From assembly GCF_900163695.1 (NCBI RefSeq), contig NZ_FUIC01000001.1, positions 1-35,810 of the forward strand: a stretch of DNA of 35,810 nt, written 5' to 3'. The notes beneath the pieces are model-generated. The model was given only the letters and a program-made list of their open reading frames with translations. It did not search any database and was not told the DNA's origin. This DNA comes from Gulosibacter sp. 10 (GTDB lineage: Bacteria > Actinomycetota > Actinomycetes > Actinomycetales > Microbacteriaceae). The translations under genes were made by a program, and so were the position numbers. Shown here piece after piece: positions 224-19,512 of the stretch; the stretch's first letter is position 1; each line of letters opens with the position of its first letter.

Positions 224-1027
224 TCATTGGTTCTCTGGCGAGTCGAGGCTGACATGAATACGATTCTGGTTGAAAGCCTCCCAATCGACGTTGAGGATGA
301 ATGATTGATCGCTGGGTGTTCGCTCGATATCGGTGGAGGTTGAGAAGCCCCCTTCATCTATGAGAACTCCGATTGCGCTTCGCACGTCTTCGGGGTCGGT
401 CTCGAGTTGCGCGGCGAGTTGGTCAAGGCTTACAAGGACGTGATCGAGCCCTTGCCCCTCGGTTCGAAAAAGTCGAATGATTGCCTGTGATGCTTCCTGG
501 TGCAGACGTTCCCACCGAAGCTTGTCCTGGATTTCAACTTCTTTGCTGTCAAGCGGCAGCACTTCAGCGGGAAGTGGAGCGGACTCGTTGAGTGACAGAA
601 CGCCGGCATGGTCCATCGTGACGACCTCGCAGGCGATTAGCAGGTCTAGCAATGCGCTTACGGTGTGCTCAATCGGGACCCCTTTCGACACCAGGTACTG
701 TTCAAAGGTTGCTTGATCCGCTAATCGCTGAGCCGCTTCTTCGGCGTTTAGTTCATCGGCAGTACGGGGCTCATCGAGGTCGCCGTAGTCCGAGTCCAGC
801 GTGGCCAGCGATTCGTCCGTCCACAGATCGAGCGGCTCCCATACAGATGAGTCAAGGCCCTGCGGAGTATGGGGGTTGGCTTCCCGCAGCATCGCGTCAA
901 AGTCGGCTCGCACGATCGGAGCGGATTGGGCGATCTCACCAAGCACGATGACGAGGGTGCTCGGCAGGGTGCTGCTCCATCCCTTTCCGAAGAGAATGTC
1001 TGCCATGAGCTGCTGCGCTTCTTCCAT
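224..1027 (-). CDS. Hypothetical protein with C-terminal winged-helix-like region (DUF6042-like?)
   Basis: A 267-residue soluble acidic protein with no signal peptide or membrane segment. The start was set at the ATG at 1027 (MEEAQQLMAD) rather than 14 codons upstream, because the extra residues are basic and read through the intergenic region. Residues around 180-230 (LDQLAAQLETDPEDVRSAIG and following) look like a winged-helix fold. The middle part, including PLPAEVLPLDSKEVE and LRWERLHQEAS, reminds me of DUF6042 proteins, but this is from memory and weak. It is transcribed away from the gene at 1084 with only 56 bases between the starts, so the two probably share a control region. Function unknown. 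Confidence 0.65.
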   Translation of the reverse strand: MEEAQQLMADILFGKGWSSTLPSTLVIVLGEIAQSAPIVRADFDAMLREANPHTPQGLDSSVWEPLDLWTDESLATLDSDYGDLDEPRTADELNAEEAAQRLADQATFEQYLVSKGVPIEHTVSALLDLLIACEVVTMDHAGVLSLNESAPLPAEVLPLDSKEVEIQDKLRWERLHQEASQAIIRLFRTEGQGLDHVLVSLDQLAAQLETDPEDVRSAIGVLIDEGGFSTSTDIERTPSDQSFILNVDWEAFNQNRIHVSLDSPENQ

Positions 1028-1083
1028 GTACCGATTATCTCGTGAGCGCGACGGCCTCAGTGGCCTCATGGCAGAATACTCGC

Positions 1084-1935
1084 ATGCCTGCTGATTCCAT
1101 CACTGACTGGATCTCGAGCGTCTCCACAGCTCTCACAGCCCTCGTCGCGATCTTCGCCCTGTTCTATGCGGGGCGTCAGGTCAAGGAGGCACGGAAGTCG
1201 CGTGAGCTAACGAGGGAGCTCGAGGTTGAGCGGTCGCAGCCGTATGTGGTGGCGTTCACTGAGCCGTCAGAAGCCACGAACCTCGCAATTGACTTGGTTA
1301 TCAAGAACTTCGGTCTTACAGCGGCACGGAATGTGCGCATCTCCCTAGATCCCTGGCCGAGGCGATCCGGACGAGATGGGGACGGGGCAACGGTAGGGGT
1401 TCCCGGAGTTTTGTCGATCCTTGCGCCGGGCCAGGAGTGGCGGACATCGTGGGACTGGGGTCCGGAGCGCCAGGACTCATCCCTTCCTGACAAGCACGTC
1501 GGTGAAGTCACGTTTGAGGGGCTCAACGGTGCGCGCCTCAGTTCCCCGGTGATTCTCGATCTCGGGATATACAAGCCTCGCGAGTGGATCGAAGTACGCG
1601 GGATGCACGACGCTGCCCAGGCACTACGAGACATCCGCGGCATGATGAAGAAGTGGTCAGAGTCCCCAAACGGTCTAAGTGTATTCACGAGAGACGGCGA
1701 CGCTAAAGACGAAGAACTACGGCGAAAAGCGGAAGCGTGGAGGGCCGCGCACAAACGCAGGGAAATGGATAAACAGGTGGACGGCGCTGCAGATGCGTCG
1801 CCGGACGAAGGGACCCTTTCTGATTCCGCAACGGGGAAAACCTCTGGCGCGGATGCGATCACTAAACACCCAGTCGAAGACCACGGGACTGCTGAAGAAA
1901 ATGATGACGAGGGAACTTCCTCTGGACAGGAGTAG
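1084..1935 (+). CDS. Hypothetical N-terminally membrane-anchored protein
   Basis: A 283-residue protein. The start chosen is the ATG at 1084 (MPADSITDW), which places one hydrophobic segment at residues about 8-28 (VSTALTALVAIFALFYAG). A charged helix follows (GRQVKEARKSRELTRELEVE), as in many bacterial one-pass proteins with a cytoplasmic domain. Residues about 60-165 look like a beta-rich domain (IDLVIKNFGLTAARNVRISL, LAPGQEWRTSWDWG). The last 60 residues are hydrophilic, low-complexity and probably disordered. The codon use is less GC-biased than in the core genes of this window. I do not recognise the family. Similar one-pass proteins are common as orphan cargo on actinobacterial mobile elements. 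Confidence 0.65.
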   Translation: MPADSITDWISSVSTALTALVAIFALFYAGRQVKEARKSRELTRELEVERSQPYVVAFTEPSEATNLAIDLVIKNFGLTAARNVRISLDPWPRRSGRDGDGATVGVPGVLSILAPGQEWRTSWDWGPERQDSSLPDKHVGEVTFEGLNGARLSSPVILDLGIYKPREWIEVRGMHDAAQALRDIRGMMKKWSESPNGLSVFTRDGDAKDEELRRKAEAWRAAHKRREMDKQVDGAADASPDEGTLSDSATGKTSGADAITKHPVEDHGTAEENDDEGTSSGQE

Positions 1936-2179
1936 ACGAGTCACTCGGGGACGTCGCGAATCTCAGCACTTGAAATCTGACGTTAACGCAGATCTCCCGC
2001 TTCGGTGATGTTCGTCTCCAAACCGTGTGTTCTTGGTGTCCAAACGAATGAGTGGCGTCGGTGATCTTCGCAACTGTGTGCTGTCCGCTTTGCCTGATCA
2101 CCAAGCAGTCTCAGTAGCAGTTGAGGACTCCTGCCACATCCTGGGTCGGCCGGCGAGTTGACGGCCAAGCCAGCCCCGC
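1936..2179. other. Non-coding gap between convergent genes
   Basis: The 244 bases between the convergent genes ending at 1935 and 2180 contain no convincing ORF. An imperfect direct repeat (CGGTGATSTTCG) occurs near 2002 and 2059. No clear terminator hairpin was found. An attachment site for the neighbouring recombinase could lie here, but nothing in the sequence shows it. Confidence 0.3.
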
Positions 2180-3349
2180 CTACCCCGCTGCTTCGAGGTG
2201 CTCGGTGGTTGAGGCATCGACGATCTCGTCGCGCGGAACGTAGTGGATCTGGGTGATGCGCGAGTCGGTGTGCCCGAGGAGCGTGGCGGCGAGGTCGATG
2301 CCGGCGGCGTCGTTGATCGCAGTCGCGACCGCGCACCGGAATCGGTGCGGTGTGACCGCGTCGATACCCGCCTTGGCCGTGACATCACGCAGTCGCCGAC
2401 GGATGTTGTTGGTCGTGTGCGGGGTACCGCGCCGGGTGGAGAACAGCAGCGTGTCTTTCCCGCGGACGATGACGTTCCGCAGCCGAGCACGGATCGCGTC
2501 GACAGCGAACTTCGGGAGTGCGATGCGCCTGACCGACTGCGCGGTCTTGGGATGATCCTGCCGGTGCGTGGGCTCGCAGGCGCGGCTGACAATCGTACCG
2601 CAGATCCGTACCGTCGGGATGGCGGACTTCAAGTCGAGGTCGCACAAGCGGATCGCGAGCACTTCCCCGATGCGGGCCGAGGTGCCGAGCATGACCTCGA
2701 CAATCTGGCCGAGCTGTCCATCCGGGCGGGGTCCGGCCGTGACCTCGCGTTCCTCCCAAGTTCGGATCGCGGTCCGGATGTATCGCACCTCCGCAGGAGT
2801 AAATGTATTGACCTCGCGCGACGGCCGGCGAAGCCTGGAGACGTGGTCCATCGGGTTGCGCGGGATCAGCTCGTGCCGGACAGCGAGCCCGAGCGCGAGA
2901 CGCATGGCGACTCTGGCCTGGCGTGCCTTGTTATAGCTGTCCTTCGCGAGCTGCTTGATGAAGTAGTCGCAGCGGGCGACGCCGATCTCGCGGAGGGTGA
3001 GATTTTCAAAGAGGGGTAGGACGAGCTTGCGTATGTTCCGCTCGTACAACAGTCGGGTCGTGTGGGAGAGCCGATCCTCGATCTCCATGTCCTCGATCCA
3101 GTAGTCGACCAGCGCAGCAAAGCTGCTGTCCGGGGTCATACCGGTGAAGGTCGGCTGGAACAGAGGGCGCTCGGAGAGCTTGTGCTTGAGCAGGCGCTCG
3201 GCACCGGCCGAGGAGCTCGCGGTGCACTGGACGAGTCGCGTGCGGCCGTCCCAGTCCCGGTACCGCGTTGAGGCGGTGTAGCGGCCGCTATGGAGACGTT
3301 TGCACGAGATGCGGCCGTGCGTTCCGATCGGAGTGCGAGGCCTAGCCAA
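2180..3349 (-). CDS. Tyrosine recombinase / phage-type integrase
   Basis: A site-specific recombinase of 389 residues, the usual length for integrases of actinobacterial mobile elements. The N-terminal arm-binding part (residues 1-70) is followed by a SAM-like core-binding domain (about 75-170). The catalytic domain (about 185-380) has the full active-site set: Arg226 (TSARIGEV), Lys268 (HPKTAQSVRR), His335 and Arg338 (PHRFRC), His360 (LLGHTD) and nucleophile Tyr370 (TQIHYV). The start is a TTG at 3349 with GGAG seven bases upstream. It should therefore be active in integration or excision. It lies about 6 kb from the tRNA-Pro end of the island, unlike the usual integrase-next-to-tRNA layout. 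A second, truncated integrase occupies that position instead. Confidence 0.93.
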   Translation of the reverse strand: MARPRTPIGTHGRISCKRLHSGRYTASTRYRDWDGRTRLVQCTASSSAGAERLLKHKLSERPLFQPTFTGMTPDSSFAALVDYWIEDMEIEDRLSHTTRLLYERNIRKLVLPLFENLTLREIGVARCDYFIKQLAKDSYNKARQARVAMRLALGLAVRHELIPRNPMDHVSRLRRPSREVNTFTPAEVRYIRTAIRTWEEREVTAGPRPDGQLGQIVEVMLGTSARIGEVLAIRLCDLDLKSAIPTVRICGTIVSRACEPTHRQDHPKTAQSVRRIALPKFAVDAIRARLRNVIVRGKDTLLFSTRRGTPHTTNNIRRRLRDVTAKAGIDAVTPHRFRCAVATAINDAAGIDLAATLLGHTDSRITQIHYVPRDEIVDASTTEHLEAAG

Positions 3350-3728
3350 CAGCGCGCTCCGTCTCGAGGACGTAGCGCGAGGCTCGTTGGTTTTTCAATA
3401 TCTGGGTTCTCGATGTGGTCATTGCTCCAGCCTGGCAATCTTCTCGAGTCCACCTGCCGACGGCGCCACGGCCAGGCGCACTGGGCCGCGACACGCCGAG
3501 CGAGCGCGGGGAACGATTCTTGCCCGAAGTCGCGAGCAGGGTGCGCATCGGTGCGGACTGAGACTGCTTTCTGTGGCGCTCGGCGCTTAACCGAGCATCA
3601 CATGGCATCACATTGGAGCATCGCATCGGGGCATCACAAAGAGGCGTCACATGATCTAGCACCAGACTGCAAGTGGCTCTTTTCGCTGTGAAATGGTTGA
3701 CCGCGTGGGCTGTGGTTTGGTTGTAGGT
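3350..3728. other. Non-coding region with iteron-like repeats
   Basis: This 379-base region lies between the divergent recombinase and winged-helix genes. Its right half carries short direct repeats (separate entry). No ORF here has a credible start or coding character. It is the natural place for promoters of both flanking genes, and for an origin if the downstream gene is a replication initiator. Confidence 0.45.
3595..3652. repeat. Iteron-like cluster of GCATCACAT repeats
   Basis: The 9-mer GCATCACAT occurs exactly at 3595-3603 and 3605-3613. Near copies are GCATCACAA at 3631-3639 and GCGTCACAT at 3644-3652, and a doubled GCATC lies at 3618-3627. All are in the same orientation within 58 bases, ending about 75 bases before a gene with two winged-helix segments. 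Plasmid origins bound by winged-helix initiators often look like this, but the spacing is irregular and a repressor operator is equally possible. Confidence 0.5.
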
Positions 3729-4619
3729 ATGAGCGACAGAAATTCCGTGCCGATTGACAAGCCGAGCGGGGCTACGCCCGCCAGCACTCGTGAGCACATG
3801 ACGAAGCTCTCGGGGCGAGGCTACGCGCAGGTACGTCATGTCCTGGTGCAGCTCCCCGACCAGGACAAGCCCCGGGCCAGCACCTTGGCACGCATGGTGT
3901 CGGGCCGCCGTCATCGAGAGCTGCTGTTGTACCTGCTGTTATTGACCTGCTGGCCTTGGCTGGCGGACCGTAAGACACCGCTGCCGGCCGGGGCATGGAT
4001 CCGAGCACTCACTGCGGCTCAGGGTCCGACGTGGTCGGAGACGACGTTGTCGCGTTGTTGGAAGCGGCTGGAGGATCTCGATCTCATCGAGAAACGGGAA
4101 CGAGAGAACCGGCTCGTGCGCATCGTGCCTCGTCGCGAGGATGCGGGAGAGCCATACAGTGCTCCGCTCGGTCGAGATTCGCGCTGGCATACGTACTTCG
4201 TGCTGCCGGATGAGTTCTGGAACCAAGGAGTCTTCGCGGAGCTATCGCTACCCGCACTGGCTGTCTTCCTCGTCGTCGCCAGCGAGACCAACGGGAAGAA
4301 GGAGTGTTGGTTCACGTATGAGCTGATGGACGAATGGTACGGATTGAAGGCTCGCACCGTGCAGGCCGGGGTGAAGCAGTTGCAGGATCTCGGCCTGCTC
4401 ATGGTGCGAGAAGAGCCCTTTGAAGCGCCGCTGTCGGCGACGGGAATGTCTACACGGCGGTACTACTCCCTGACTGGGCCTTTCAGCTACAGCGCGAGGG
4501 AAAAGTTGCGAAAGATCGCACAACAGAAGACGAAGGATCGTGCGAAGAAGGCGGCCTCGAAGACGAAGGTTCGAATGGCGCCGATCAAGCCGAAGAAGTC
4601 AGTCAATAACAAGAAGTAG
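3729..4619 (+). CDS. Double winged-helix DNA-binding protein, possible replication initiator
   Basis: A 296-residue basic protein with no membrane segment. Two winged-helix-like segments are visible. One includes WSETTLSRCWKRLEDLDLIE (about residues 100-120). The other includes LKARTVQAGVKQLQDLGLLM (about residues 205-225). Both have the recognition-helix pattern followed by 'LxxLGLI/L'. The C-terminal 40 residues are Lys-rich. Paired winged helices plus upstream iteron-like repeats resemble plasmid replication initiators. A plain transcription regulator is the alternative, and no catalytic motif is seen. The start is uncertain: an ATG at 3693 adds 12 residues, another at 3798 removes 23, and none has a good ribosome-binding site. 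A small membrane protein follows after 12 bases. Confidence 0.7.
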   Translation: MSDRNSVPIDKPSGATPASTREHMTKLSGRGYAQVRHVLVQLPDQDKPRASTLARMVSGRRHRELLLYLLLLTCWPWLADRKTPLPAGAWIRALTAAQGPTWSETTLSRCWKRLEDLDLIEKRERENRLVRIVPRREDAGEPYSAPLGRDSRWHTYFVLPDEFWNQGVFAELSLPALAVFLVVASETNGKKECWFTYELMDEWYGLKARTVQAGVKQLQDLGLLMVREEPFEAPLSATGMSTRRYYSLTGPFSYSAREKLRKIAQQKTKDRAKKAASKTKVRMAPIKPKKSVNNKK

Positions 4620-4631
4620 GAGCCACCTGCG

Positions 4632-4841
4632 ATGAGCGAGGAGAGGAAGGTGATGCATATGCTGGGTCCGAAGCTCGGCCCTGATGGCTGGAAGACGATA
4701 CGCTCCGCCTTGGACAACTGGGGACGCACGATGCGCTTCGCTGTCCTCTGGCTCGCGCTATGCGCGCCCGTGGTCGCGGTTCTCTGGCTGTTCGCTGATC
4801 GGGTCGCTGCACTCTCGAACGCGATTCACCTTTTGCCGTGA
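4632..4841 (+). CDS. Small one-pass membrane protein
   Basis: A 69-residue protein starting at an ATG preceded by AGGAG at a nine-base spacing, 12 bases after the winged-helix gene, so probably co-transcribed. Residues about 35-56 (FAVLWLALCAPVVAVLWLFA) form one hydrophobic segment after an amphipathic, positively charged N-terminus, suggesting N-in topology. Its stop lies 8 bases from the end of the convergent protease gene. No family is recognised. Small membrane proteins next to replication or transfer genes are frequent on actinobacterial mobile elements, but a role cannot be assigned. Confidence 0.6.
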   Translation: MSEERKVMHMLGPKLGPDGWKTIRSALDNWGRTMRFAVLWLALCAPVVAVLWLFADRVAALSNAIHLLP

Positions 4842-4849
4842 GCGCAAAG

Positions 4850-7378
4850 TCAGGTCGCGGAGACCTCGGTCGCGATCGGGACTTGGAGCTGTGTGGCGAT
4901 CGGGGTGTAGAGGTCGACACCCTGCTCTCGCGTCTGAAGTGATAGGAGCAGCGCATAGCGGACAGGAAGCTCTTTCCGGTCGGCACGTCGGTTGTTCTTC
5001 CACCAGCCGCCGACCGGGTACACGGCGACGCTGCTACAACGTGCCAGTTCTGCGCCGGTTCCATGCCACTCGTCTTGGTGGAGGGAGCCGAGGTTGCGGG
5101 ACTGTTCTCCGATAAACCAGCGTTGTGAGGCGTTCTTACCGGGCGGGGAACCTTCTTCAGCGTTCTGTGCTTCGCGGTTGATGCGGGCGACAAACTCTGC
5201 ACGGTTCTCGAGCGGGCCCTGGAGATCGAAGCGCAAACCGTGTGAGGCGTATGCGTAGCGGTTGCGCCAACCGCGCCGCGAGGCCGAGGGCTCGATGAAG
5301 TAGGACAGCGTGAGTCGTAGCCGAACCTCAGTGCCGCCGAGTTCCTCCAGTACCTCCGCGGGCCAGGGCAGGGAGTGCAGTCGGAAGTGGCGCATTGCGA
5401 GATCCGACCCTTGGAAAGGAACGAACTGATCTTGAGCGATGAGCGTGACCGCTTGACGGGACGAGTTGAGAACCGTCTCCTCCATCGGAACGCCCCACCC
5501 GAACTGTCTCAGCAGTTGGTGGCGATCGGTCTTCTTTTCGACGCCGTCGACCTCTTGCCGCATCGGCTCCGTCCACTCGGCCGAATGCGTGAGCAGTCCC
5601 CGGATCGTCTCAGGCCAGTAGTCCGGATAGCGATCCATCGCCAGGGCGGCAAGGCGGGCAGCCTGGGCCGTTGCGGCGCTGGTGGCATTGGCGGAAGTGA
5701 GCGCGACATCGCTGGTGTTGCCGGTCGACCGTAGGGAGAGCAGGGAGTGGCGCTCGTTGAGCCCTCCCGCTCCATCGGTCAGGACGTTGCCGCCCTCCAT
5801 ACAGATATCTGGCTTGACGGGCCACCGTCGTTGGTCGAACATCACCGAAGTACGGCTATGCGGGGAGAGTTCCCCGGTATTCGCCATCGCCGACCACCCG
5901 GCATACTGCGGATGCTGCGGCAGCACGGCACGCTCAGTGTAGGCGCCCACCGTCAGCGCGTTCCACGCCTGCGCCGGATCTTCGATCGGCGAGGTGATCG
6001 AGTTGGTTCGGTAGTCTTCCATATATGGTGAGACGTTCCCGGCCGCCACCACGATCAGGCGTGAATTGTCCGGATCCGGTGACCCGATGAGCTGGAACTG
6101 ATCACCGTCGCGGGTGTTCTCGGTGCCGACAGCGAGAGCGTCGACGGCAGCGGACCACAAGGTGGGTTCCCCGGTGTTCTCGGGCGGGTAACTGAGTGTC
6201 AGGCAATAGACGCGACGCCGCGGGTTGGTGATCTCCGCGAGGGCAGCGGCCTGAACGGTGGCACTTCCGTAGTCGATCGGATCGATTGTCGATTCACCGC
6301 GCGCCGGGGTCATACGGACGGACTCGAGGCGATGCCGCAGGCTGATTTCATTCGTGCCGAGGAGGTGGGGCTCGAGATCCCCATACAGGGCGAGTCCGGC
6401 CATTGAGGTGCCGTGTCCCTGGTGATGAGCGTCGTTGCCCGAGGTTCCGATCACGGTGTGATGGTCCTCGGTCGCGAGAGAATCACGGAGGAGCACGTGG
6501 GTTCTAAAGACGCCGGTGTCGAAGTGGCACACCGCCGGCGCGTCCGAGGGGGCCGGGATAACACGATCAACGAGGTCTGCGACGTAATCGGTTTGTTCGT
6601 CGACGTCGAGGTCTTCGACAGTCTCGATGAACTCCGGCCGTCGAATCTCTGTGAGCGGAACCGCAGTGAAGGGCAGGATCTCCAGTTGAGCCCAGCTCGC
6701 TTCGACCCATACGATCACGCGGTCCCGAAGCCGCAGCGACCGGTCGAGGATCCGCAAGCCGTTGGCTGTGATGAACTCGCGCAGGGCATCGAGGTGCTCG
6801 CTGCCCGCGTCAAGCCAGAGCTCCCACCAGTGTCGACCGTGGTAACGGGGCTCGCCATCGGAAGTCCACAGATCAGACAGAACAGCATGGCGGATACGAG
6901 CGATGTTGGCGACGAGGTCCTGGTTCTTGGGGTTTCCCCCACGGCTGCTTTTCTCGAGGTAGTCCTCGAACAGTTGCAAGAATTTCTGCCGGAACTCATC
7001 CGCGACCCACACAGTGGCACGTTCGGGCTGCTCGTCGCTGGCCTCACGGACCGACAGGAGAAGCCATTTGGGACGGTTGATCTTGTGCTGGGTATACGAG
7101 TCCAGCGATTCGAGCTTAAGCGGGTGCGCGGCGCTCTCGCCTTCCAGGACGATGACGGTGCCGGTTGCGCGGAGCTGATCATCGTCGGGGAGACAGCTAT
7201 CGCGTTCCTCATCGGACTCGCTAAAGGCGTCCTGCACGGCCGACTGCAGCGCTTGCCCGTGACCGTGACGCTCGACAGTGCGCCGTTTGAAACCTCCGCC
7301 TCCCCGGCGGTGGAAGTCGGCCGTCTCGGCGTACCCGTGGATGTAGAGGTGGTCGAGATCGCGGCCGGGCTCAGCCAA
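4850..7378 (-). CDS. ietS: Subtilisin-like (S8) serine protease, IetS type
   Basis: A predicted cytoplasmic serine protease of 842 residues with no signal peptide. An N-terminal domain of about 270 residues precedes the S8 domain (about 275-600). The catalytic triad is visible: Asp287 (CHFDTGV), His322 (QGHGTSMAG) and Ser567 (NATSAATAQAA), with the oxyanion Asn448 (VVAAGNVS). A beta-rich C-terminal region of about 240 residues follows. Pairing with an upstream AAA ATPase is diagnostic of IetAS. There IetS acts as toxin and IetA as antitoxin in the Ti-plasmid example (established knowledge, from memory). The start is a TTG at 7378, 8 bases inside the ietA end, with no clear Shine-Dalgarno sequence of its own. 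Translation is therefore probably coupled to ietA and limited. The natural substrate is unknown. Confidence 0.88.
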   Translation of the reverse strand: MAEPGRDLDHLYIHGYAETADFHRRGGGGFKRRTVERHGHGQALQSAVQDAFSESDEERDSCLPDDDQLRATGTVIVLEGESAAHPLKLESLDSYTQHKINRPKWLLLSVREASDEQPERATVWVADEFRQKFLQLFEDYLEKSSRGGNPKNQDLVANIARIRHAVLSDLWTSDGEPRYHGRHWWELWLDAGSEHLDALREFITANGLRILDRSLRLRDRVIVWVEASWAQLEILPFTAVPLTEIRRPEFIETVEDLDVDEQTDYVADLVDRVIPAPSDAPAVCHFDTGVFRTHVLLRDSLATEDHHTVIGTSGNDAHHQGHGTSMAGLALYGDLEPHLLGTNEISLRHRLESVRMTPARGESTIDPIDYGSATVQAAALAEITNPRRRVYCLTLSYPPENTGEPTLWSAAVDALAVGTENTRDGDQFQLIGSPDPDNSRLIVVAAGNVSPYMEDYRTNSITSPIEDPAQAWNALTVGAYTERAVLPQHPQYAGWSAMANTGELSPHSRTSVMFDQRRWPVKPDICMEGGNVLTDGAGGLNERHSLLSLRSTGNTSDVALTSANATSAATAQAARLAALAMDRYPDYWPETIRGLLTHSAEWTEPMRQEVDGVEKKTDRHQLLRQFGWGVPMEETVLNSSRQAVTLIAQDQFVPFQGSDLAMRHFRLHSLPWPAEVLEELGGTEVRLRLTLSYFIEPSASRRGWRNRYAYASHGLRFDLQGPLENRAEFVARINREAQNAEEGSPPGKNASQRWFIGEQSRNLGSLHQDEWHGTGAELARCSSVAVYPVGGWWKNNRRADRKELPVRYALLLSLQTREQGVDLYTPIATQLQVPIATEVSAT

Positions 7379-8339
7379 GGCTGGCCGTTCGGCGGGCGGT
7401 CAGAGCGGCGATCAGGTCATCGCGGTCGACATGCGTCTCAGCACGCATCAACACGGCCTTTGCCGCTGATTCTGCGGCCTTTACGAGTTCGGCATGACTG
7501 AGCTCGTTCGTGAACTCACCCAGCTTGGCCATGCTCGTGCCAGCCGCGAGAGATCCTAGCCGCGCCCGGATGACGGCGACAGCTTGCCTGGCATCCGGGA
7601 GGCTGTATGTCAGGACAGCGTCGAACCTGCGGAAGAGAGCCTTGTCAAGGATCGCCCGGTGGTTTGTCGCGGCAAGCACGAGCGATTCAGGGCTGGCCTC
7701 CTCCAGGAACACGAGGAAGGAATTCAGAATCCGGCGAGCCTCGCCAACATCGTTGCCGGCACGATCGGCGCCGAGCGCATCGAACTCGTCGAAAAGGTAG
7801 ACCGCACGGTGCCGTGCGACAGCGTCGAAGACCAGGCGAAGTTTGCTGGCCGTCTCACCCATGAACTTACTCAAGAGGCTGTCCAGTCTGATGGTGAACA
7901 TCGGAATGGACAGTTCCGTGGCGAGCACGGCAGCAGTCATGGTCTTTCCCGTGCCGGGAGGCCCTTCAAGCAAGAGCCGGTGCGCCGGAGCGAAACCATG
8001 ATCAAGAAGCGTCTTCCGCTGTCGCTGCTCGGCAAGGACCTGCTTGATCTGAGCAACGAGTTCTGCGGGAGCGACGAGTTCACGGAGCCGAACATCCGGG
8101 CGAGTCTCCTCGACGAGCTCTGCGAACTCGCCACGAGGCTGCGCCATCGGCGTGACGGTTCCCAGTGGTGCACGTTGACGAGAGGAGTCGACAGCCTTCT
8201 TGATATCGCCGGCGAGCACATGGTGCCCACGTTTGGCCTCACGTGCGGCAACCTGTAACGCGACAGAGTAGAAAGCTGCATCGTCGCCAGCTGCGTGGCT
8301 ACGCACCATCGCAGTGATGTGCTCTGCTGTGCCGGCCAT
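7371..8339 (-). CDS. ietA: AAA+ ATPase partner of S8 protease, IetA type
   Basis: A 322-residue AAA+ ATPase. A helical N-terminal domain (residues 1-85) precedes the ATPase core, with Walker A GPPGTGKT at 126-133, Walker B VYLFDEFDA ending in Asp184-Glu185, sensor-1 Asn226 (LAATNH) and Arg237/Arg238 (FRRFD) as arginine finger. The core resembles the FtsH/katanin/spastin group. The start was set at the ATG at 8339 because GAGGGGG lies six bases upstream. The 28 in-frame codons before it read through IS-derived sequence. It is the first gene of a two-gene operon with ietS. By analogy with the Agrobacterium pair it is the antitoxin or regulator that restrains the protease. The upstream region is truncated by an IS3 remnant, so its native promoter may be lost or replaced. 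Confidence 0.88.
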   Translation of the reverse strand: MAGTAEHITAMVRSHAAGDDAAFYSVALQVAAREAKRGHHVLAGDIKKAVDSSRQRAPLGTVTPMAQPRGEFAELVEETRPDVRLRELVAPAELVAQIKQVLAEQRQRKTLLDHGFAPAHRLLLEGPPGTGKTMTAAVLATELSIPMFTIRLDSLLSKFMGETASKLRLVFDAVARHRAVYLFDEFDALGADRAGNDVGEARRILNSFLVFLEEASPESLVLAATNHRAILDKALFRRFDAVLTYSLPDARQAVAVIRARLGSLAAGTSMAKLGEFTNELSHAELVKAAESAAKAVLMRAETHVDRDDLIAALTARRTASLG

Positions 8340-8345
8340 GATGCA

Positions 8346-8352
8346 CCCCCTC
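8346..8352 (-). promoter_or_regulatory. Ribosome-binding site deciding the ietA start
   Basis: The minus strand reads GAGGGGG here, six bases before the ATG at 8339. It supports this start over the upstream in-frame ATG at 8423. Confidence 0.7.
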
Positions 8353-8430
8353 ACCCTTGTGCTCCTATCGTACTCGGCGAGCTTCGCGGCCCGCGGGAAG
8401 GAAAGACGCGGGTTGAATCCCACGGTGCTT

Positions 8431-8487
8431 CGGCTCGACCTCGAACTCGGCGCGATGCGCGTCGATGTACGCGGTCTTCTCGGTCAT
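8431..8487 (-). pseudogene. 5' remnant of IS3-family transposase OrfB
   Basis: Starting at the ATG at 8487, the frame reads MTEKTAYIDAHRAEFEVEP, the characteristic beginning of OrfB in this IS3 group. It then loses similarity and stops after about 40 codons. The DDE catalytic domain is absent. The ATG overlaps the orfA stop in an ATGA, the usual arrangement for programmed -1 frameshifting in this family. Confidence 0.75.
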
Positions 8488-8795
8488 CGTGAGGGGCGGT
8501 CGAGCTCCGCCGCGAAGAAAGCCGACGCGGACTTCAGGATCTGGTTCGCGCGCCGCAACTCGCGCACCTCGCGTTCGAGTTCTTCGACCCGTTCAGATTC
8601 CTCGGTGGTAGTGCCGGGGCGGAGGCCCTCATCGACTTCTGCTTTCCGCACCCACTTCCGGAGTGTCTCGGGAAGGAGATCGAGCTGCTTCGCGATGCGG
8701 GTGATCGCGCCATCACGAGTCGCGAGGTCTTTGCGGGCCTCGAGCGCGAGCCGGACCGCGCGTTCGCGGATCTCAGCGGGGTAGGGGACGGGCAT
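8484..8795 (-). CDS. IS3-family transposase OrfA
   Basis: A 103-residue DNA-binding subunit of an IS3-type transposase. The helix-turn-helix (about residues 10-50, AVRLALEARK through PETLRKWVRKAEVDEG) is followed by a leucine-zipper-like coiled coil (about 62-88, ERVEELEREVRELRRANQIL), the normal OrfA layout. It ends LKSASAFFAAELDRP, also typical. The start used is the ATG at 8795 (MPVPYPAEIR). An earlier in-frame ATG at 8846 would add 17 residues that lie at the element's edge. Because orfB is destroyed, this copy cannot transpose by itself. Confidence 0.88.
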   Translation of the reverse strand: MPVPYPAEIRERAVRLALEARKDLATRDGAITRIAKQLDLLPETLRKWVRKAEVDEGLRPGTTTEESERVEELEREVRELRRANQILKSASAFFAAELDRPSR

Positions 8796-8839
8796 GGTGC
8801 CAAGGGTTCCTTTCAGTACAGGATTACCCTCCATCAAAC

Positions 8840-9007
8840 ACGACACGATTCATCCTCGGGCACGCATCTGTGGAAACCATCCGCGGCTACCTGCACCCCG
8901 GCGACCGGCACCTCGCGTCCGCCGCAGAGCAAGCCAACGCCTTCCTCTCAGCCGCCGGACAGCGCCGTCACGCACGCCAGAACCAGCCGCCGAAACGCGA
9001 ACTTTAA
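8840..9007 (+). pseudogene. 3' remnant of a tyrosine recombinase (integrase)
   Basis: From about 8840 to the TAA at 9005-9007 the plus strand encodes the last 55 or so residues of an integrase. They include the second catalytic His and the nucleophile Tyr in ILGHASVETIRGYLHP, followed by a hydrophilic tail ending in PPKREL. Everything upstream, including the Arg, Lys and His-x-x-Arg residues, is missing and replaced by the IS3 remnant. It points toward the 3' end of tRNA-Pro, about 220 bases away. That is the expected layout for the original integrase of a tRNA-integrated island. Confidence 0.8.
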
Positions 9008-9041
9008 CATCTCCGAAGGGCACCACGGGAAGGGCCCGGAA

Positions 9042-9181
9042 ACGTTCTGGTCCCTATTTGGTCCCCTTTTGGTCCCCTTATCCACAGGGAAGCGGCCCGA
9101 GCCGAGTCGGCCGTCCGCAGAGCGGCTCTCCGAACAGTGTCAGGGGGACCAGAGGGACCAACAAAAACCCGTCCAGAACGT
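9042..9181. repeat. GGTCCC direct repeats flanked by an inverted repeat
   Basis: GGTCCC occurs at 9049, 9060 and 9071, exactly 11 bases apart. Two copies in the opposite orientation (GGGACC) lie at 9145-9150 and 9154-9159. The whole is framed by ACGTTCTGG at 9042-9050 and its reverse complement at 9173-9181. This lies between the integrase stump and the tRNA 3' end, where integrase arm-type binding sites are expected. That assignment is inference. Confidence 0.55.
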
Positions 9182-9185
9182 GAAG

Positions 9186-9220
9186 AAGCCCAGGAGAGAA
9201 ACTACTTCTCACCTGGGCTT
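9186..9220 (-). terminator. Hairpin downstream of tRNA-Pro
   Basis: AAGCCCAGG (9186-9194) pairs perfectly with CCTGGGCTT (9212-9220), extended by a GAGAA/TTCTC inner stem after a mismatch. It starts five bases after the mature tRNA 3' end. No long U-tract follows, so strength is uncertain. Confidence 0.55.
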
Positions 9221-9225
9221 TCCTG

Positions 9226-9299
<74 letters not shown>

Positions 9300-9316
9300 A
9301 TGCTGCCGAAGCAACC

Positions 9317-9322
9317 TGTATA
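9317..9322 (-). promoter_or_regulatory. Possible -10 box of the tRNA-Pro promoter
   Basis: The minus strand has TATACA ending 18 bases before the mature tRNA 5' end, a plausible -10 position. No convincing -35 was found at the right distance. Confidence 0.35.
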
Positions 9323-9410
9323 GATTAGCGCATGTTTCCCCCGCACGGAAACCGGCCGCACTACCGGGCATGTCCGGCGTTTCGGCAGCCTCCGCTCGTA
9401 CCCTGGCGGC

Positions 9411-9938
9411 ATGCAGCGAACCCTCTATGTCATGCGCCACGCCAAGTCCTCCTGGCAGACCGGCGAGGCCGACCACGAGCGTCCCCTCAACGAGCGCGGC
9501 CGCCGCGACGCCCTCGTCGCCGGCGAGTACTTCGCCTCGCTCCCCCAGCCTCTCGACCGCGTCCTCAGCTCCAGCGCCCGCCGCACGCGCCAGACCTGGA
9601 GCCGCATCCTCGACGGCGGCGCCGAGGCCGGCACCGTCACCTACCACGACGAGATCTACGAGTCCTCGCCCGCCGACGTGCTGCCGCTCCTCCGCAACCT
9701 CGACGCCGACATCCGCTCCTCGCTCGTCATCGGCCACTTCCCCTGCGTCAGCCTCCTCGTGCGCGCCCTCGCGACACCCGACGAGCATCCCGGCTGGAAC
9801 GCCATCGACCACAACTACCCCACCGCCGCCATCTCGGCCATCGCCTTCGACGCCGACTGGACCGACCTCGACGAGGGCATCGGGCGGCTCGACGACTTCG
9901 TCGTCCCCCGCGCCGAGGGTAGCCCGAACTTCGACTAA
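9411..9938 (+). CDS. SixA-like histidine phosphatase family protein
   Basis: A 175-residue cytoplasmic member of the histidine phosphatase (phosphoglycerate mutase-like) superfamily. The N-terminal catalytic motif RHAKSSW carries Arg9 and His10. RPLNERGRRDA (about 25-35) follows as in SixA, then SSSARRTRQT with the second Arg, and the second catalytic His lies in VIGHFP (about 108). The length fits the short SixA branch, which removes phosphate from phosphohistidine proteins in Escherichia coli. The true substrate in actinobacteria is not known. It is a single gene, convergent with the NUDIX gene whose stop is 8 bases away, and is the first chromosomal coding gene beyond tRNA-Pro. Confidence 0.88.
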   Translation: MQRTLYVMRHAKSSWQTGEADHERPLNERGRRDALVAGEYFASLPQPLDRVLSSSARRTRQTWSRILDGGAEAGTVTYHDEIYESSPADVLPLLRNLDADIRSSLVIGHFPCVSLLVRALATPDEHPGWNAIDHNYPTAAISAIAFDADWTDLDEGIGRLDDFVVPRAEGSPNFD

Positions 9939-17485: not shown

Positions 17486-19512
17486 CGGCGAGGTCCTCCC
17501 TTGCGATCGCGGGGCGCGTCGCCGCGCCGGCCGCCGCGGGACTCGCCTCGGCGCTCGCGCTGCCGGCCCTCGCCGGAGGACGACCGGCCGCGCTCCGCCT
17601 TCCCGCCCTGCTCGCCCCGCTGGGACTGGTGGTAGGCGCGGGTGGCCTCGGCCTTGCGCGCCATCCGCAGCAGCTTGCGCAGCTCCTCCTCCGAGAGCTC
17701 CCGGGTCTCGCCCGAGCGCAGCGGGCCGAGCTGGAGCGGCCCGAAGCTGCGGCGCACGAGCTCCTGCACCGGGTGGCCGATCTCGTCGAACATGCGGCGC
17801 ACGATGCGGTTGCGGCCCGAGTGCAGCGTGATCTCGACGAGCGTGGCCTGCGAGGAGGAGCCCTTGGCCATGATGTGCCCCGAGTCGGCCCGGATGAAGC
17901 CGTCCTCGAGCTCGATGCCCTCGAGCAGTCGCTTGAGGTCGCCCTGCCGCAGCTTGCCCTCGACCTTCACGACGTAGGTCTTCACGACCTCGTAGGAGGG
18001 ATGCGAGAGCACGTTCGCGAGCTCGCCGTCGTTGGTGAGGATGAGCAGGCCCGAGCTGTCGGAGTCGAGGCGCCCCACGTTGTAGATGCGCTCGCTGAAC
18101 TCGCGCGTGTAGCGGCGCAGGTCCGGGCGCCCCTGCTCGTCGCGCATCGTCGAGAACACGCCCACGGGCTTGTTGAGGAGCACGTAGCGCTTGGACTGGT
18201 CGAACTGCACCGGCGTGCCCTCGACCACCACGCGGTCCTTCTCGGGGTCGATGCGGCTGCCGAGCTCGGTGACGGTCTCGCCGTTGACCTCGACGCGGCC
18301 GTCCGCGATGAGCTGCTCGCAGACGCGGCGCGAGGCGACGCCCGCGTTCGCGAGCGCCTTCTGCAGCCGCACGCCCTCGGTGCTGCGCTCGGGCGCGGGC
18401 GCCGCGCCCTCGGGGCGATGCTCCGGATGGAAGGGGATGTCGTCGAAGTCGGCGAGCGAGTAGCCGCCCTTCGGCCGCTCGCGCTGCGCCTTCACGAGCG
18501 CGTCGCGGGCCGCCTGCGCCTCGCGGCGGTCGGCGGCGCGCTCCTGCGCCCGCTGCCGCGAGAGCTCGTCCCGCTCGCGGCTCTCGAGGCCGCGCGGATT
18601 GCGATCGCGGTAGTCGCCGTCACGGCGATCGCCGCCGGGGCCGCGGTACTCGCGGCGCTCCCGATCGGGCCGGCCGCCCCGCTCCTCGCGGCGATCGCGG
18701 CCGCCCCGGGCGGCACGGCGGTCATCGCCGCCGCGGTCATCCCGGAAGCCGCGGCGGTCCGCTCCCCCGCGGTGCGCGCGATCGCTGCGGTACTCGCGAT
18801 TGCCGCGGTACTCGCGACGCTCTCGGCCCTCGCGATCCCGGCTTTCGCGCTCGGGGCGTCCGCCCCGGTCCTCGCGGCGGCGGTCCTCGCGGTAGCCCCG
18901 CTCGTCCCGATCCCCGCGCTGCTCGCGGTAGCCGCGGTACTCCCGCCGATCGCTCCCGCGGAAGGCGCGGTCGTCGCGACCTCCACGGTCGCGGGCGCGC
19001 CCGCGACCCTCGCGGTAGCTTTCGCGCGGGCGCCGGTCGTCGCGGCGCTCGGGTCGGCGATCCCGGTCGTCCCGGCGGTCGTGCTCGCGCCGGTCGCCGT
19101 CGCGGCGGCCCTCGTGCCGGCGATCGCGGTCGGCACCGCCGCGGTCGCCGCCGTGCTCGCGCCGTCCGCGGCCGTCGCGGTCGCCTCGGTCGTCCCAGCC
19201 GCCGCGCCGGTCGCGGCCGCGGTCCTCGCGAGCGCGATCGTCACGGCCCCGGTCGCCCCGGCCCCGGTCATCGCGACCGTGGTCGTCACGACCCCGGTCG
19301 TTCCGCGCCCGGTCGTCCCGCCCGCGGTACTCCCGGCGGTCTCGATCCTCGCGGGGCCCGCGCTGCTCGCGGCGGTCCTCGTCCCGACGGGAGGGGCGGC
19401 CGCCGCGGTCGTCGCGCTCGTGCCGACGAGCGCCGCGCCGGCGGTCGTCGCCGTCGCGGCGCGAGGGGCCCTCGCGTCGCGGCCTGCGCTGCTCGTTAGT
19501 CATTGAATCCAT
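17482..19512 (-). CDS. rluB: 23S rRNA pseudouridine synthase RluB-like, with long Arg/Asp-rich N-terminal tract
   Basis: A 676-residue protein, more than twice the usual 240-300. Residues 1 to about 320 are a low-complexity tract of Arg, Asp, Gly, Glu and Tyr in RRD, RGG and RDDR units, likely disordered and RNA-binding. The S4 domain follows (about 381-420, VRLQKALANAGVASRRVCEQ), then the RsuA/RluB catalytic domain with Asp483 in GRLDSDSSGLL. A short basic tail of about 45 residues ends the protein. The enzyme would isomerise a uridine in the 23S rRNA peptidyl-transferase region (position 2605 in E. coli RluB). It overlaps scpB by 17 bases. An alternative ATG at 19503 removes three residues. 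Only the tract is unusual, the catalytic part is normal. Confidence 0.93.
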   Translation of the reverse strand: MDSMTNEQRRPRREGPSRRDGDDRRRGARRHERDDRGGRPSRRDEDRREQRGPREDRDRREYRGRDDRARNDRGRDDHGRDDRGRGDRGRDDRAREDRGRDRRGGWDDRGDRDGRGRREHGGDRGGADRDRRHEGRRDGDRREHDRRDDRDRRPERRDDRRPRESYREGRGRARDRGGRDDRAFRGSDRREYRGYREQRGDRDERGYREDRRREDRGGRPERESRDREGRERREYRGNREYRSDRAHRGGADRRGFRDDRGGDDRRAARGGRDRREERGGRPDRERREYRGPGGDRRDGDYRDRNPRGLESRERDELSRQRAQERAADRREAQAARDALVKAQRERPKGGYSLADFDDIPFHPEHRPEGAAPAPERSTEGVRLQKALANAGVASRRVCEQLIADGRVEVNGETVTELGSRIDPEKDRVVVEGTPVQFDQSKRYVLLNKPVGVFSTMRDEQGRPDLRRYTREFSERIYNVGRLDSDSSGLLILTNDGELANVLSHPSYEVVKTYVVKVEGKLRQGDLKRLLEGIELEDGFIRADSGHIMAKGSSSQATLVEITLHSGRNRIVRRMFDEIGHPVQELVRRSFGPLQLGPLRSGETRELSEEELRKLLRMARKAEATRAYHQSQRGEQGGKAERGRSSSGEGRQRERRGESRGGRRGDAPRDRKGGPRR
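18552..19480. repeat. Degenerate low-complexity repeat DNA inside rluB
   Basis: This stretch is a run of short degenerate units such as CGGTCGTCGCGGC and CGCGGTACTCGCG in irregular order, encoding the Arg/Asp/Gly tract. The same unit style recurs at about 33090-33990. Both tracts could expand or shrink by slippage or recombine. Confidence 0.75.

Follow-up and report, generated by a model that had tools for sequence, protein, structure and literature searches.

The founding member of the IetAS family is the ietAS pair of pTiC58, in which a subtilisin-type protease and an AAA ATPase form a toxin-antitoxin pair that serves plasmid stability (Yamamoto et al., 2009, as cited in PMC5006074). The passages of PMC5006074 on sgiAT of SGI1 describe the SgiT protease as toxic and the SgiA ATPase as its antitoxin, the two together stabilizing SGI1, which is kept by sgiAT when a helper plasmid is present and is lost more often from cells that contain an IncA/C plasmid once sgiAT has been deleted. 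According to the same passages, IetAS homologs also occur in Actinobacteria, always side by side. Here we analyze such a pair in Gulosibacter sp. 10, on a stretch of 35,810 bases (the window) that is the entire contig C15 of a 3.65-Mb genome in 55 contigs.

The passages of PMC7826253 on SGI1 report that it carries an iteron oriV and RepA, and SGI1 therefore provides a known case, in Salmonella, of an integrated element with both an IetAS pair and a replicon. The family is further listed as phage defense, with its mechanism unknown, in the relevant parts of PMC11878078 and PMC9958689, and a table in the review PMC10286901 places ietAS among systems tied to phage proteins such as polymerase, helicase or terminase and does not specify which one; our literature search found no paper on an IetAS mechanism. 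The preliminary description of the window suggested that the pair could serve stability, defense or both, which agrees with what these sources have published on the family (PMC5006074, PMC9958689, PMC11878078). Earlier work has already described the IetAS family, along with its mobile linkage and dual role. What is added here is a branch of 43 actinobacterial loci sharing the ATPase gene in first position, an 8-base overlap, a mostly TTG protease start and a recurrent location at the 3′ ends of tRNAs.

The protease-ATPase pair and its actinobacterial branch

Both genes lie on the minus strand. The upstream gene, ietA (7371–8339), encodes a classical AAA ATPase of 322 amino acids from its ATG, as judged from the open reading frame (ORF), profile matches and an AlphaFold model, and ietS (4850–7378) encodes an S8 (subtilisin-like) serine protease of 842 amino acids from a TTG start, as judged from the ORF and profile matches; the two overlap by 8 bases on the same strand (TTGGCTGA, 7371–7378). 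Pfam assigns them to AAA (8.2e-28) and Peptidase_S8 (5.9e-46), respectively. The protease had been described as complete, and its catalytic residues were found where they had been placed, D287 (codon 6518–6520) in a DTG context, H322 (6413–6415) in HGTS and S567 (5678–5680) in ATSA; in an alignment of 32 rows, one from the window and the others from 31 of the 43 loci, all three are invariant. In the profile search of the PADLOC defense-system models, which the preliminary description had proposed, the best matches of the pair were IetS and IetA: the protease matches the IetS model PDLC02198 (2.2e-31) and five further IetS models, and the ATPase matches the IetA models PDLC04232 (4.8e-64) and PDLC02196 (1.3e-63). 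The identification as IetAS is thus right at the family level, and the search did not place the pair in a different S8/AAA family with another known role. Both profiles, adjacent genes on the same strand with the ATPase first, and intact triad and Walker motifs are among the features by which an IetAS/SgiAT pair is recognized, and all of these are present here. Taken together with the placement described below, we consider it probable that this is an intact pair from a divergent actinobacterial IetAS (SgiAT) branch, carried as cargo of an integrative element at a tRNA-Pro 3′ end, and that it provides defense and stability of a toxin-antitoxin type.

The 43 IetAS loci came from a scan of GTDB contigs, and all are labeled Actinomycetota. 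One contig (L076) begins within the protease gene, so upstream features are counted over 42 loci; ietA precedes ietS in every one of them. In 36 of the 42, the genes overlap by 8 bases and ietS stays open for 600 or more codons, with TTG as the start in 30, ATG in four and GTG in two. In L079 the TTG at the overlap is kept and the frame is broken, while L066, L070, L071, L074 and L083 are without the overlap. Apparently decaying ietS copies were seen in L070 (10001–12532, in-frame stop) and L079 (10001–11977, broken frame). The IetS alignment never took in L055, L056, L073, L075, L076, L077, L079, L080 and L083, and it dropped L070, because of its in-frame stop, plus L066 and L084 at that step. 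The nearest IetS is from Jonesia, with 78% identity, and IetA is more conserved than IetS (86% vs. 78% in Jonesia). Identities are lower for Salinibacterium and Cryobacterium (about 70%), Microbacterium azadirachtae (66–67%), Herbiconiux (59–61%) and Agromyces (55–56%), all of which we take to be Microbacteriaceae, so that the Jonesia IetS is closer to that of the window than are those from members of its own family. Also in favor of mobility, the pair is present in one of 11 genomes of the genus and four of 150 of the family, with its own genome counted in both.

Translation of ietA and ietS may be coupled at the overlap, and a TTG start within the end of the upstream ietA suggests that less protease than ATPase is made. 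On this dosage reading, IetA would be made in excess and would hold or gate IetS, acting as a threading ATPase of the PAN, FtsH or Vps4 kind. The trigger might be a phage protein that engages IetA, or loss of the element, upon which IetA would decay first. Freed in the cytosol, IetS would then cut host proteins, phage proteins or both, and growth would stop; one switch could in this way yield both abortive phage defense and stability of the element.

By eye, IetS has no obvious signal peptide; its profile gave no sequence match in PDB at 0.001, and a fold search did find subtilisins. IetA has an N-terminal three-helix bundle, the motifs Walker A (GPPGTGK) and Walker B (FDEFD), and a pore-loop-like motif (KFMG), in the last of which K158 and M160 are nearly invariant and G161 is invariant in the alignment. 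Its AlphaFold model has a pLDDT of 84, and its nearest folds are PAN/Rpt, FtsH, p97 and Vps4. The same evidence, i.e., a AAA fold nearest to PAN/Rpt and FtsH and the conservation of the pore-loop-like motif, would also fit IetA as an unfoldase rather than an antitoxin, one that feeds substrates to IetS in a two-part ATP-dependent protease activated by infection. We hold this as a tentative possibility: F159 of that motif is not conserved at 90%, and according to PMC5006074 the protease of SGI1 is toxic by itself, its toxicity being relieved by the ATPase, so that there the protease works without a motor.

Placement on mobile elements and beside defense genes

The window had been described as holding a tRNA-associated island, and this agrees with a tRNA-Pro(ggg) on the minus strand (9225–9299), whose 3′ end points toward the island 886 bases from ietA, and with the presence of integrase genes. 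This placement resembles that of other members of the branch: in five of the 42 loci (L045, L056, L067, L070, and L079), ietA has the end of a same-strand tRNA no more than 1 kb upstream, against an expectation of 0.44 (P = 1e-4) from a density of nine tRNAs in eight of the 43 loci over the same 836 kb. Within the window, the 3′ part of tRNA-Pro (9225–9267) is the putative core of the attachment (att) site and recurs on a separate contig (C32:337–379) with 42 of 43 bases identical. About 410 bases from this second copy lies a second integrase, int2, to which the tyrosine integrase of the window, int1 (2180–3349, minus strand, 389 amino acids, with profile matches), is 60.6% identical. Both int1 and a 43-base att copy are found, the latter on C32. 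C15 and C32 may be joined, in which case C32:1–336 would be where the element of the window ends, and a second element would follow. Genome G100 of the same genus has, next to a remnant of an integrase, another copy of the tRNA-Pro end at a distance of 8.2 kb from the tRNA (L125 1140–1765 and 9960–10092). The att copies on C32 and in G100 indicate that tRNA-Pro serves as an integration site in the genus.

Repeats of GGTCCC/GGGACC, several at 11-base spacing, lie on the would-be interior side of both att copies, at 9048–9159 in the window (9049, 9060, 9071, 9145, and 9154) and at 227–243 on C32 (L031; at 227 and 238, 11 bases apart). They are perhaps integrase arm sites. Among the tRNA-linked IetAS loci (seven tRNAs in six loci), a search for exact repeats of at least 12 bases gave one 12-base match, and none that would be credible as an att repeat. 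In L075, an integrase close to that of the window is broken into three pieces (17576–18766).

Plasmids are a second line of mobile linkage. IetS relatives were found by tblastn in 452 plasmid records, and in 370 of these a single match spans 80% or more of the query. Among the 40 matches listed, the best are three from Rhodococcus and Nocardia (63–66%), followed by Pseudonocardia (55%), and the remaining ones, from Rhodococcus, Proteobacteria (including Burkholderia), Deinococcus and cyanobacteria, have identities of 34.7–41.4%. For IetA, copies carried by Agrobacterium plasmids show an identity of about 50%. Homologs are therefore linked to mobile elements, both by these 452 records and by tRNA 3′ ends. 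None of 138 pattern stretches from viral contigs is an IetAS relative, and phage records gave two with an IetS match.

Genes next to the pair were searched with PADLOC models in 147 of 150 chosen ORFs, the nearest two on either side, leaving out L066:3–518, L079:12077–12779 and L081:13991–14320; the ORFs came from a custom caller that admits antisense ORFs. In a scan of nine chosen proteins, GajA and GajB adjoin IetS in L046 and GajA does so in L075, BrxL and PglZ are present in L050, and L080 has cyclase, E1-E2 and phospholipase (CBASS) genes; the protein chosen from L057 matched viperin only in part. By blastp clustering only, L062 and L077 have homologs of the L080 genes (cyclase, E1-E2 and patatin phospholipase) upstream of IetAS. 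Matches to AriA and the DRT helicase in the larger scan are possible cross-hits of Gabija genes. The corresponding passages of PMC9958689 report a reference contig from Salmonella that carries both Gabija and ietAS; 95% and 91% of the copies occurred together with its integrase. In our data, C32 also holds, at 337–9480, the att copy followed by the tyrosine integrase, a large serine recombinase, a 1206-amino acid ATPase and a protein with a RelA_SpoT domain. The ATPase gave a NACHT match below the cut-off and a weak PDC-M54A match; it and the RelA_SpoT protein are candidate defense genes of a tandem island.

Would such neighborhoods suffice to make the pair a defense gene that benefits the host and nothing else, sitting in a defense island whose mobile-element signals merely hitch-hike? 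The Gabija genes of L046, BrxL and PglZ of L050 and the CBASS genes of L080 would fit this, as would the ATPase and the RelA_SpoT protein carried on C32 with the second att copy. We nevertheless find it unlikely, given the adjacency to tRNA 3′ ends, the carriage on plasmids and the stabilization of SGI1 by SgiAT. The opposite view is that the pair is a pure maintenance module, stabilizing the integrated element as sgiAT does SGI1 and having no anti-phage role. The increased loss of SGI1 upon deletion of sgiAT in the presence of an IncA/C plasmid (sgiAT passages of PMC5006074), the occurrence of sgiAT alongside an iteron oriV and RepA (SGI1 passages of PMC7826253) and the tRNA-linked islands found here all speak for it, whereas the Gabija, BREX and CBASS genes that adjoin some loci and the listing of the family as phage defense (in the parts of PMC9958689 and PMC11878078 that treat it) make it less likely still.

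Several observations weigh against a toxin-antitoxin role in both defense and stability. The NCBIfam scores are far below the equivalog cut-offs (IteS, 48.1 of 900 bits; IteA, 177.8 of 510 bits), and so the pair cannot be filed as an IteS/IteA equivalog, only as a divergent branch, and transfer of function is uncertain. With respect to the proteins, the aromatic F159 of the pore-loop-like motif is not among the 90%-conserved columns of IetA, and the IetS model has a pLDDT of 69.9, a moderate confidence, with residues 1–38 the worst. The neighbor scan, in which 175 PADLOC models match at 1e-10 and the GajA and GajB models do so in two members each, was run without a control set, and the island is truncated at the left contig end, which leaves the far boundary of the element outside the window. 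As for published work, the sgiAT passages of PMC5006074 report that no post-segregational killing was seen with sgiAT on its own promoter in SGI1, and the study of Pf phages, in the part that treats IetAS, found no lysogens with both IetAS and phage, so that its evidence for defense is a correlation (PMC11878078).

The winged-helix gene, its repeats and the rest of the island

In a module that stands tail to tail with the pair, a gene on the plus strand encodes a winged-helix protein of 308 amino acids (3693–4619), or a shorter one from the ATG at 3729. It had been described as a double winged-helix protein, of which one half stands: only HTH_36 (residues 183–236) passes Pfam, and none of the searches confirmed a second, N-terminal winged helix. 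The profile gave a single weak match in PDB (E 0.72). Homologs occur in 48 plasmid records and in 21 of 396 genomes of the order, its own genome counted, and no relative was found in viral contigs (57 stretches) or in phage records.

Upstream of this gene is a tandem array, on the plus strand at 3594–3652, of five GCATCACAT-type iteron-like repeats with spacings of 10, 13, 13, and 13, where 0.29 copies would be expected. Over the whole window, the motif with two mismatches has 24 matches vs. 19.6 expected, which is not above chance; it is the clustering that stands out. The iteron-like repeats noted beside IetAS are therefore real, and they recur in relatives. In a motif-copy test restricted to the window and seven relatives of known orientation, the motif occurs upstream of the winged-helix homolog at p ≤ 0.014 in L012, L013, L017, L018 and L019 and not in L014 and L023; the five positive relatives, with 40–55% identity, are all on Kocuria, Arthrobacter and Rhodococcus plasmids. 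In a chain test for 9–14 base spacing, seven of 16 rows have p ≤ 0.05, and as the repeat of L094 is unrelated and T-rich, arrays are counted for the window and five of 15 relatives. L012 misses the chain test (p 0.1), though the motif test gives four copies there, and L014 and L023 fail both. The arrays in the window and its relatives support a DNA-binding protein whose own sites form the array.

Whether this is a replicon can be asked of the plasmids. Of three plasmids with close homologs, the one from Kocuria has an initiator of the Replicase family (PF03090), and Rhodococcus DN22 p4 (about 84% read) and the Dietzia plasmid have helix-turn-helix (HTH) proteins of 627 and 618 amino acids near ParA, which gave weak primase-polymerase matches below the cut-off. 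A comparison of the winged-helix protein with the Dietzia HTH protein gave no convincing match (hhalign probability 0.6, E 0.094). A 24.6-kb Streptomyces plasmid and a Paenarthrobacter plasmid (about 78% read), both with distant homologs, have no initiator annotated. That the element is an integrated plasmid, with the winged-helix protein as initiator and the repeats at 3594–3652 as oriV, would suit the plasmid-borne motif copies, the spaced arrays, the 48 plasmid records and the two plasmids with no annotated initiator, and is a poor prospect in view of the other replicase candidates on the Kocuria, Rhodococcus and Dietzia plasmids, the lack of a convincing hhalign match, and a partner gene that switches.

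This partner lies downstream. In the window it is a 69-amino acid protein with one hydrophobic span (4632–4841, plus strand), a type that recurs beside the winged-helix gene in L014, L017, L019, L023, L089 and perhaps L095, with the motif W-K-[TA]-[VI]-R in four of five aligned sequences. In Kocuria and Arthrobacter it is instead annotated as a DUF3800 gene, and by eye DUF3800-like ORFs are also present in L091, L024, L093 and L094, Pfam giving no match in the fragments of L093 and L094. Neither type is visible downstream in L018, L088, L090 and L092. A tentative reading is that the winged-helix gene and its array of 10–13 base spacing form a possibly new two-part conflict or toxin-type module of actinobacterial plasmids and islands, in which a DNA-binding regulator sits on an array of operators and governs an effector that can be swapped, the one-span membrane protein in some cases and the DUF3800 protein in others. 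If so, two stability or defense modules would lie on the island independently of each other.

We read the winged-helix/repeat module as separate from IetAS. When the neighbors of IetAS homologs were compared for rep genes and iterons, the module was found in none of the 43 loci, nor in L015, L016, L020 and L021, over the DNA fetched (25 of 42 loci with near-full flanks). The proposed stability module of an integrated plasmid-like element is supported with respect to mobile linkage, and its link to a replicon is weak and possible only. In nine other winged-helix loci, five recombinase queries gave two serine-recombinase matches, both in L118 (6e-12 and 3e-7). Two of nine such loci scanned contain a tRNA-Lys(ttt) (L119 1258–1332; L122 9767–9841), perhaps another integration site.

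The order of the island to the left of tRNA-Pro is as follows. A C-terminal remnant of a tyrosine integrase on the plus strand (8849–9007; LGHASVETIRGYLH..., translation read by eye) is followed by a remnant of an IS3-family OrfA on the minus strand (8484–8846); only 145 bases separate the latter from ietA, so there is no space for OrfB. After ietA, ietS, the small membrane protein, the winged-helix gene with its array, and int1 come a gene without a Pfam match (1042–1935, plus strand) and a DUF6042 gene (224–1069, minus strand), neither of which was found in the 43 IetAS loci. To the right of about 9.2 kb the window looks chromosomal: six of ten scanned ORFs match Pfam at 1e-5, including a histidine phosphatase, an EngA-type GTPase, a pseudouridine synthase, CTP synthase and an aldehyde dehydrogenase. 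An Rfam scan of nine sources found only tRNAs at the gathering score. At the contig start (16–94) there is a 39-base tandem repeat containing GACTACACCCTCGTTCGTGAAGAGCC, and a nearly identical GACTACACCCTCGTTCGTGAAGAGCC string lies in the same direction near the start of C32 (L031, 1–60). The repeat resembles an insertion-sequence terminus, presumably ISL3-like, at which C15 and C32 both break.

Comparison with known systems

The design features shared across the branch yield a dosage model that can be tested, and the relevant parts of PMC9958689 and PMC11878078 give the mechanism of the family as undescribed or unknown. Compared with the phage-defense systems represented by the IetA and IetS models of PADLOC, both window proteins match, while the equivalog cut-offs of NCBIfam are not reached. 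The KP-43 and SubHal subtilases (1wmd and 5fax) share with IetS a subtilisin domain and a C-terminal beta domain. These enzymes are secreted. IetS differs from them in having no signal peptide by eye, about 270 extra N-terminal residues and a AAA partner gene. Among the described pairs, ietAS of pTiC58 is plasmid-borne, unlike the pair in the window. A published precedent is sgiAT (S026-S025) of SGI1, which, like the window's pair, is an ATPase-protease pair on an integrative element with an int gene. In the SGI1 sources cited above, by contrast, that element is proteobacterial, integrates at trmE rather than at a tRNA gene, and is under helper-plasmid control.

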